Assembly: GCF_024138165.1 (NCBI RefSeq)
Contig: NZ_CP100000.1
Span: 620,001-684,000, forward strand
Direction: 5' to 3'
Source: Halorussus vallis
Lineage (GTDB): Archaea > Halobacteriota > Halobacteria > Halobacteriales > Haladaptataceae
Length of the DNA: 64,000 nucleotides
Part shown: in pieces, positions 12,758-14,931 of the stretch
Layout of the letters: the number at the start of each line of letters is the position of its first letter
Position numbering within the stretch: position 1 is the first letter of the stretch
Notes under the pieces: generated by a model
What the model was told of the DNA's origin: nothing
Databases searched by the model: none
Seen by the model: the letters and a program-made list of their open reading frames with translations, nothing else
Position numbers and translations under genes: made by a program

Positions 12758-12896
12758 CGGAAAGAGCGAACCCTGCTGACTTGCCGAGGCTCTCCACCGA
12801 GTAGTTCACAGAATCTACCGTTCGGAATCGGACTCGGACCGTGCGTAGGATTTCCTGCTCACACTCGTTTTTCGCTTCGCTCGAAAACGTTCTCAG

Positions 12897-12920
12897 TGCG
12901 CGGGACCGGATTCGAACCGG
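12897..12920 (-). repeat. Short tRNA-Leu 3'-end copy (att-like, third copy)
   Basis: 24 bases match the acceptor/T-arm end of the tRNA-Leu gene at 14432-14455 with one mismatch. This is probably a scar of an older integration nested outside the main one. Confidence 0.7.
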
Positions 12921-13016
12921 ACCAAGACGTTCCTGCTCGCGCCCTACGGTCGCTGCGCGGGCATGCGACTTGCAGGATTCAAATCGGTCCTGCTCTTCGC
13001 TCACTTCGTTCGCTCA

Positions 13017-13069
13017 TGCGCGGGACCAGATTTGAATCGGCGGACTCCCACGAGACAGCGTCCTAAGCG
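13017..13069 (-). repeat. Distal attachment-site copy of tRNA-Leu 3' half
   Basis: 53 bases match the 3' part of the tRNA-Leu gene (14432-14484), from the 3' end through the anticodon loop, at 50 of 53 positions and in the same orientation. A tRNA 3'-half duplication is the classic product of tyrosine-recombinase integration, here with the intact tRNA at the other end. Confidence 0.9.
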
Positions 13070-13239
13070 GCCGCCCCACGAAACGGCCTCAACCGGCGAA
13101 ATACGCCCGTTTCGCTCCCGATAAACTGGAATAAGTGGGCGAGAATTACAAAAATGGCTACGGCACAACGTCGACCGCTGTGAACGTTCTAGGAGAACCA
13201 CTTACTCCTACACACTGATAGCTGAGAACTGTGCCAAGA

Positions 13240-14208
13240 TTATCCGTGAAGTCCCATCGCCTCGATCTGTTCCTGGTAGCGGTTTCGGATGGTGACCTCG
13301 GTGACTTGGGCGACTTCGGAAACCTCGCGCTGGGTCTTCTTCTCGTTGCAGAGCAGTGACGCGGCGTATATCGCTGCTGCGGCGAAGCCCGTCGGTGATT
13401 TACCTGATAGGAGCCCCGCCTCGGCAGACTTGTCGATGATTTCGTTCGTCTTGGCCTGCACCTCCTCAGGGAGGTCCAGCTCCGAACAGAACCGGGGAAC
13501 GTACTGCTTGGGGTCGACGGGCACCATCTCTAACCCGAGTTCCTTCGAGATGTACCGATACGTGCGCCCGATCTCCTTTTGCTCGACACGCGAAACCGCT
13601 GTGACCTCTTCGAGTGACCGCGGAATCCCTTCCTTCCGACAGGCTGCATAGAGCGTGGCAGTGGCTACACCCTCGATCGACCGCCCACGGATGAGATCCT
13701 CGTTGAGTGCCCGTCGGTAGATGACGCTGGCGACTTCTCTGACTGATCGGGGGACACCCAACCCGGAGGCCATGCGGTCGGACTCCGAGAGCGCAAACTG
13801 GAGATTCCGTTCTCCCGCGTCCTTGGTTCGGATGCGGTTTTGCCACTTTCGGAGCCGGTTCATCTGACTGCGTTTTTCCGAGGAGAGCGAGTTCCCGTAG
13901 GCGTCCTTGTCCTTCCAGTCGATGGACGTCGTCAGCCCCTTATCGTGCATCGTGTTCGTGGTTGGGGCACCCACACGAGACTTCTCCTGCCGTTCGGCGT
14001 GGTTGAACGCTCGCCACTCCGGTCCCCGGTCGACGTTGGTTTCCTCGATAATGAGTCCACAGTCCTCACACGTGAGTTCAGTCCCGTCAGCGCTCTTGAC
14101 GAGGTTGGCAGCGTCGCATTCTGGACACGTTTGGCGTTGTTCAGCGTCCTGTTTCTGCTCTCGTTCTGCATGGTTCTCGTGGGGGTGACGCTGCCGGGTT
14201 CTCTCCAT
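13240..14208 (-). CDS. tfb: Transcription initiation factor TFB (TFIIB-like)
   Basis: A full-length 322-residue TFB. The N-terminal zinc ribbon has [15 protein letters not shown] and LTCEDCG (cysteines about 28, 31, 47, 50). The B-finger/linker reads [15 protein letters not shown], and two cyclin repeats follow: about 130-215 with [16 protein letters not shown], and 225-310 with [17 protein letters not shown]. The C-terminal HTH is [17 protein letters not shown] binds TBP and the BRE to recruit RNA polymerase. Haloarchaea keep several TFB paralogs, each favouring some promoters. This one lies inside the tRNA-bounded segment and has less GC-rich codon use than neighbouring genes, both signs of transfer. 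Confidence 0.95.
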
Positions 14209-14431
14209 GCCCTTTTTAGATGAGCCAGCGGGTATAACACTTGGGTGGAGGCAGCCATTCCCGCTCGTTGCTGAACCTGACTTCGGCGACCCATCGCACT
14301 GGACAGTCTTCGCGGTCGCAGTTGGTCACGCGCCCCCGCGCGGCGAACCCAGTGTTAACGTGCTCTTCCGGGATTCACCTACCCTCGCAGGGGAGGTGAC
14401 CTGATTAACGGCAAAATCGACTGAATCGGAG

Positions 14432-14515
14432 TGCGCGGGACCGGATTTGAACCGGCGGACTCCTACGAGACAGCGTCCTAAGCGCTGCGCCGTTTCCTGG
14501 CTTGGCTACCCGCGC
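14432..14515 (-). tRNA. tRNA-Leu (anticodon UAG)
   Basis: Read on the minus strand, 84 bases fold as a type II tRNA: acceptor stem GCGCGGG/CCCGCGC with discriminator A, D arm GCC...GGC, anticodon stem CAGCG/CGCTG with loop CTTAGGA (anticodon TAG), a long variable arm as expected for leucine, and T loop TTCAAAT. No CCA is encoded and no intron is seen. Its 3' half is the integration target for the TFB-carrying segment. Confidence 0.95.
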
Positions 14516-14574
14516 TCGCGTCCCAGAATTCAGCCGACGGCGATAAGAAGGTGTCGTCTCGGCTCCGAGCGTTT

Positions 14575-14931
14575 ATGTACGAAGACGCCCGAACAACTCG
14601 CGTGTACCGGGCACGCGACCAGATAGAGAACCGCCGCTGGCTCGCCCAGCTCCAGCAGACCGCCGACAGACTCGACCTCACCGCCGACGCCCGCTCGCGG
14701 GCGAACGACCTCTTTCTGACCACCGTCTCGCAGTGGGAAGACAGCGCGAGGGAGAACGCCGACTCCAAGCGCGCCGTGGTCGCCGCCAGCCTCTACGCCG
14801 GGGCGCTCATCGAGGGCGACCAGCGCTCGCAGGGGCAGGTCGCCGAGGCCGCGGGAGTCGCGCGGCTGACCATCCAGAAGCGCTGGAAGGACCTCCTCGA
14901 AGAAGCCGGGTTGGAACCGCCGTCGTGGTAG
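14575..14931 (+). CDS. Mini-TFB: stand-alone TFB cyclin/HTH domain protein
   Basis: A 118-residue protein resembling one cyclin repeat plus the C-terminal helix-turn-helix of TFB, without a zinc ribbon or B-finger. YRARDQIENRRWLAQLQQTADRLDL opens the helical bundle, RAVVAASLYAGALIEGDQRS is the cyclin repeat core, and VAEAAGVARLTIQKRWKDLL is the DNA-reading HTH. Relatives in haloarchaea are annotated as TFIIB-family proteins. It may compete with full TFBs at the BRE or bind TBP; this is inference. The ATG at 14575 is preferred over GTG 14551, and an AT-rich block lies upstream. It sits 60 bases beyond the tRNA-Leu gene. Confidence 0.75.
   Translation: MYEDARTTRVYRARDQIENRRWLAQLQQTADRLDLTADARSRANDLFLTTVSQWEDSARENADSKRAVVAASLYAGALIEGDQRSQGQVAEAAGVARLTIQKRWKDLLEEAGLEPPSW

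Follow-up and report, generated by a model that had tools for sequence, protein, structure and literature searches.

The window, a stretch of 64,000 nucleotides (C1:620001-684000 of the Halorussus genome G000), contains a tRNA-Leu gene at positions 14431–14515 of the minus strand, which proved valid when its structure was examined and has the anticodon UAG. The part of this gene that begins with the final two bases of the 5′ anticodon stem and extends up to the tRNA 3′ end (14432–14484) is present a second time at 13017–13069. Both copies have the same orientation, with a spacing of 1415, and are identical at 50 of 53 positions (94%; E=4e-19 within 20 kb). Repeat comparison confirmed in this way the repeated tRNA-Leu 3′ half that had been described in a sequence-only reading of this DNA. 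The only plausible gene between the two long copies is located at 13240–14208 on the minus strand and encodes a TFB (transcription factor B / TFIIB) of 322 amino acids. Its frame is uninterrupted and the intact protein comprises an N-terminal Zn-ribbon and two TFIIB (cyclin) repeats (Pfam PF08271 and two matches to PF00382), as is typical for archaeal TFBs. The gene is one of 11 full TFB genes of the G000 genome (5.05 Mb on five contigs), which in addition has a short TFB-like one. A putative promoter region (14209–14254, minus strand; GTGTTATACC) appears TATA-like and is conserved, by alignment, with the copy of the gene in genome G011. Promoter region and TFB together would represent a complete transcription unit, which is presumably expressed. 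Further outward lie two end pieces, a left end of 82 nt (13070–13151) and a right end of 177 nt (14255–14431) with a hairpin at 14370–14402.

As had also been claimed from the sequence, the lone TFB is complete and less GC-rich than its surroundings, with a G+C content of 0.596 for the gene and 0.588 for the unit versus 0.682 for the window. The GC3 value of the gene is 0.72, while the eight other TFBs that were compared range from 0.79 to 0.89. On the branch leading to the unit 28 of 34 third-position changes were GC-to-AT, whereas host genes had 63 such changes out of 193 on that branch (Fisher p=6e-8); the polarising relied on diverged outgroups (dS about 1.1), and the comparison is noisy. 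This excess of GC-to-AT changes fits residence in another base-composition context. Comparison with the G011 copy yielded a dN of 0.022 and a dS of 0.39 and thus a dN/dS of about 0.06, which indicates that the TFB was retained under purifying selection.

The sequence 12897–13069 corresponds to the original tRNA 3′ half and its native flank. Searches with positions 12880–13239 revealed identities of 74–90% to this sequence in about a dozen relatives, and the homology to their uninterrupted site ended exactly at 13069. When position 13069 was joined to 14485, which removes 1415 bp, ARAGORN called an intact tRNA-Leu, and in alignments with ten relatives the reconstructed empty site continued straight across the junction. 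In the sister genome G006 the tRNA-Leu is uninterrupted and no TFB is present at this locus. Since the match of the relatives stops at 13069 and the junction can be aligned, positions 13070–14484 are an insertion of 1415 bp into tRNA-Leu(UAG), with defined polarity and boundaries; the exact ends are ambiguous inside the 53-bp att core. According to the same evidence the copy at 14432–14484 (minus strand), which covers the anticodon stem/loop to the 3′ end, arrived with the unit and restores the tRNA, and only the 5′ part at 14485–14515 belongs to the host. The copy at 13017–13069 (minus strand) is the host's old tRNA half, now displaced and non-functional. The insertion at tRNA-Leu proposed by the sequence-only reading is therefore real, as are the empty sites in relatives for which it had suggested a comparison, and duplication of the tRNA alone is ruled out by the empty-site alignment. 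A regenerated tRNA at one end, a displaced 3′ fragment in the same orientation at the other end and an uninterrupted site in relatives are hallmarks of tRNA-targeted islands.

The displaced copy alone carries the private substitutions behind all three differences between the tRNA halves, as expected of a copy that is freed and decaying. Three changes in 53 positions are a small number, but they suggest that the insertion occurred after the split from the sister G006; the synonymous difference between the two genomes amounts to 0.36–0.50 in flanking genes. The tRNA-Leu itself is syntenic in 18 of 18 genomes of the genus, but the TFB is present at this locus in only two of them and absent from the other 16. 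The TFB is consequently no ancestral ortholog kept at this place in all relatives, which the sequence-only reading had named as a finding that would refute it.

A second element, and with it other cargo, was found in the same tRNA-Leu(UAG) of another Halorussus genome, G014 (G014:C9:22433-48998). This low-GC element of 26.5 kb possesses a PF00589 integrase gene starting at the tRNA, about 20 other ORFs and a displaced 50-nt 3′ half of the tRNA at its far end. Its att sequence of 50 nt has the same start at the tRNA 3′ end as the 53-nt att of the unit and stops 3 nt short of it, so that the unit and an element with its own integrase have concordant att edges. Thus, the two elements share the target tRNA, att ends within 3 nt of each other and a low GC content, but the G014 element shares no sequence with the unit ends and differs by its integrase and its many other ORFs. 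Integrases of the G014 type adjoin a tRNA at all 12 loci of the family. Homologs are located beside tRNA-Gly, tRNA-Glu, tRNA-Leu(UAA) and tRNA-Cys in other Halorussus genomes, and G000 itself has a full-length member beside tRNA-Gly. The element at the same att site and the homologs at tRNAs indicate that the genus has circulating integrases that can act on this site.

The coincidence of the repeat edge with an att site used by integrases of the genus also bears on the question whether a site-specific recombinase was needed at all. A transformed circle with the tRNA 3′ half and the TFB could have entered by homologous recombination, and such a Campbell insertion would yield the identical structure and would agree with the absence of an integrase. 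Homology of 53 bp is, however, short for homologous recombination, and together with the position of the edge this makes a recombinase-free entry hardly credible. Archaeal att sites are typically 40–50 bp long and located at tRNA 3′ ends, and IntSSV1 cuts at the anticodon loop (PMC8371274); the att position of the unit fits such archaeal tRNA integrases.

The absence of an integrase, another point of the sequence-only reading, was substantiated by a search of the window with the 12-locus Halorussus integrase family, which yielded no hit. Within the unit no integrase remnant or other element gene was detected above noise, so that the integrase gene usually found inside an island is missing here, and an integrase for tRNA-Leu(UAG) was not found in the G000 genome either. 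The unit ends had no counterpart in the genus genomes, in the plasmid collection or in the G014 element. A plasmid origin of the ends was rejected on account of the missing matches in the plasmid collection. A short coding-looking frame in the right end (VTNCDREDC...) had no homolog among 195 Halobacteriales genomes in a translated search and was dismissed as a gene. Haloarchaeal and rod-shaped viruses also have TFBs, but viral matches to the unit TFB, including those of the phage collection, are less than 30% identical. A virus origin was discarded for this reason and since neither an exact attP nor a relative of the TFB was present in viral contigs.

Because integrases for this site circulate and the unit has none, we read it as a remnant with a retained TFB: most probably, it is what deletion left of a larger tRNA-targeting element that had integrated site-specifically. 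A circular DNA with the TFB and a copy of the tRNA-Leu(UAG) 3′ half would have integrated into the host tRNA-Leu by a crossover in or near the anticodon loop, in the manner of tRNA-targeting tyrosine recombinases. The incoming 3′ half would have rebuilt the tRNA and displaced that of the host by 1.4 kb. Later the integrase and the remainder of the element would have been deleted, whereas selection preserved the TFB transcription unit alone, and the unit is probably immobile at present. Since neither a piece of an integrase nor any other gene of such an element survives in the unit, we infer its larger past and do not see it directly.

Like the tRNA-targeted islands described by Islander (PMC4383910) and for archaeal tyrosine recombinases (PMC8371274), the unit has a regenerated tRNA, a displaced 3′ fragment, an att sequence from the anticodon region to the 3′ end and empty sites in relatives. 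Unlike these islands it is only 1.4 kb long, with one gene and no integrase. A precedent for an integrase-less bracket with an imperfect tRNA 3′ copy is known from Haloquadratum walsbyi, where 6.7 kb are bracketed by a tRNA-Thr duplication (5 mismatches in 57 positions of the 3′ copy) with no integrase nearby, which its authors regarded as a prophage or integrative remnant (PMC3119063). That region contains mostly hypothetical genes and pseudogenes, whereas the sole cargo of the unit is an intact TFB. TFBs as cargo of mobile DNA are already known, e.g. TFIIB in thaumarchaeal integrated elements (PMC6563490), but those TFBs reside in multi-gene elements or viruses and the unit has its TFB alone. 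The TFB expansions of haloarchaea were attributed mostly to ancient duplications (PMC4230888). At the sequence level, the present locus is an example of an accessory TFB gained through site-specific insertion, for which ends, polarity and empty site are defined.

Instead of being a remnant, the 1.4-kb unit might itself be the mobile form, a non-autonomous TFB cassette moved in trans by an integrase encoded elsewhere. Such a cassette is possible, the positive evidence for it being the two intact att copies (94%); the seemingly complete transcription unit and the full-length integrase that this genome has at tRNA-Gly, a tRNA-targeting member of the G014 family, would be compatible with it. Nevertheless, independent copies at different sites or in different genomes, as expected of a non-autonomous unit, were not seen, since 392 Halobacteriales genomes contained no second copy. 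Furthermore, no tRNA-half bracket was present around 86 other TFB loci, a set that consists mostly of core TFBs and tests recurrence only weakly; the one locus with tRNAs nearby has a tRNA-Thr gene pair and no bracket. In view of these results, of the decayed displaced tRNA half and of the missing tRNA-Leu(UAG) integrase in this genome, movement in trans has a small though real chance of being correct. The more specific idea of a minimal mobile regulatory cassette, in which TFB and promoter lie between tRNA att sites and are excised and spread by such an integrase, is unlikely. If it were true, a single step would suffice to acquire or lose a change of general transcription factor.

Phylogenetic analysis of 126 TFBs placed the unit TFB and the G011 TFB in one clade (support 100/100), and within a group of five members restricted to Halorussus (99/97). 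The TFB thus belongs to a patchy, Halorussus-only clade. The other three members of the group (in G009, G008 and G005) are not near tRNAs. The G011 TFB is the nearest relative with 95% identity, the block 13152–14254 is 88.5% identical to G011, and no other TFB in the 392 Halobacteriales genomes exceeded 86% identity to that of the unit. In G011 the gene lies at most 3.3 kb from the same tRNA-Leu and in the same orientation. The native flank and two further genes separate it from the tRNA, it is not bracketed by tRNA halves, and an att remnant was undetectable there, as the best local score equalled that of shuffles. The dS of the TFB pair (0.39) equals that of flanking orthologs (0.33–0.60) and of the core TFB (0.46). 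This is divergence at species level, and G011 is therefore no recent donor. G011 was accordingly rejected as the source, and no other recent donor was found. Ordinary genes of G000, too, have drifted from GC to AT at third positions when compared with G011 (28 vs 5 changes in four flanking genes).

The G011 arrangement raises the question whether the TFB was ancestral near the tRNA and became enclosed in G000 by a local rearrangement that duplicated the tRNA 3′ half in tandem and involved deletions. The sole other close TFB relative is indeed found near this tRNA and has the same orientation, and the dS of the TFB matches the divergence of the species. On the other hand, G000 and G011 are not sisters in the tree, and with the TFB absent from 16 of 18 genomes vertical descent requires many losses. 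Moreover, G000 has no native-flank sequence between tRNA and TFB and no TFB beyond the native flank, and the repeat edge is no more than 3 nt away from the att edge of G014. A rearrangement of this kind is very unlikely. The remnant reading does not explain why the nearest TFB stands beside the same tRNA yet outside the att interval; a possibility is an element lineage linked to tRNA-Leu, which would account for the same accessory TFB occurring near this tRNA twice. The sequence-only reading had suggested the unit as a vehicle that would move regulatory programs between haloarchaea. With a single instance, no cognate integrase in the genome, species-level divergence, and neither a recent donor nor another tRNA-bracketed TFB in 392 genomes and at 86 TFB loci, this transfer is not supported.

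A third piece of the tRNA-Leu 3′ end, 24 nt at 12897–12920 (minus strand; measured as 26 nt at 12895–12920), had been counted among the repeats of the unit. It is a real tRNA copy, but since most relatives have it but lack the TFB unit it belongs to the ancestral flank and was ruled out as an end of the unit. The piece closes a hairpin unit, R1, whose copy at 12908–12985 (minus strand, 78 nt) likewise lies in the native flank. A covariance model of R1 had matches in 44 of 59 Halobacteriales genomes, with up to 27 copies each, and the 17 genomes with matches in a 120-genome sample of the phylum were all Halobacteriales. Among 29 copies checked, 28 start 33–211 nt downstream of a tRNA gene on the same strand (Leu, Phe, Ile, Gly, Arg, Ala, Met, Ser or Val), 25 have at least 16 nt (mostly 21–25) of the 3′ end of their own tRNA repeated downstream, and tandem copies are common. 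The predicted stem is supported by covariation, with double changes in 14 of 19 pairs and a score of 0.278 versus 0.02–0.07 for slid versions, although the underlying alignment had been fitted to the model and a few weak matches on the opposite strand are among its sequences. In Rfam the region gave only tRNAs and no family for the hairpin, and no description was found in the open-access literature, so R1 looks undescribed. Because the copied acceptor end varies with each tRNA, one mobile element with a fixed att is a poor simple fit; insertion resembling target-site duplication and a co-evolving RNA-processing element are two possible readings. This Halobacteriales-wide structured repeat behind tRNA genes may matter more than the TFB unit.

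On the other side of the tRNA-Leu the host flank encodes a TFB-like protein of 126 amino acids (14551–14931, plus strand) with one TFIIB repeat and no Zn-ribbon. It is syntenic in all 18 genus genomes, the aligned frame has one or two stops in several of them, and the order mini-TFB / tRNA-Leu / coaD is shared in the genus. Downstream of the tRNA-Leu, between the native flank and g11157, the cargo differs among Halorussus genomes and, as labelled by eye, consists of a long peptidase-like ORF, a PQQ-like ORF, a restriction-like ORF of 1300 amino acids, or a TFB and two genes.
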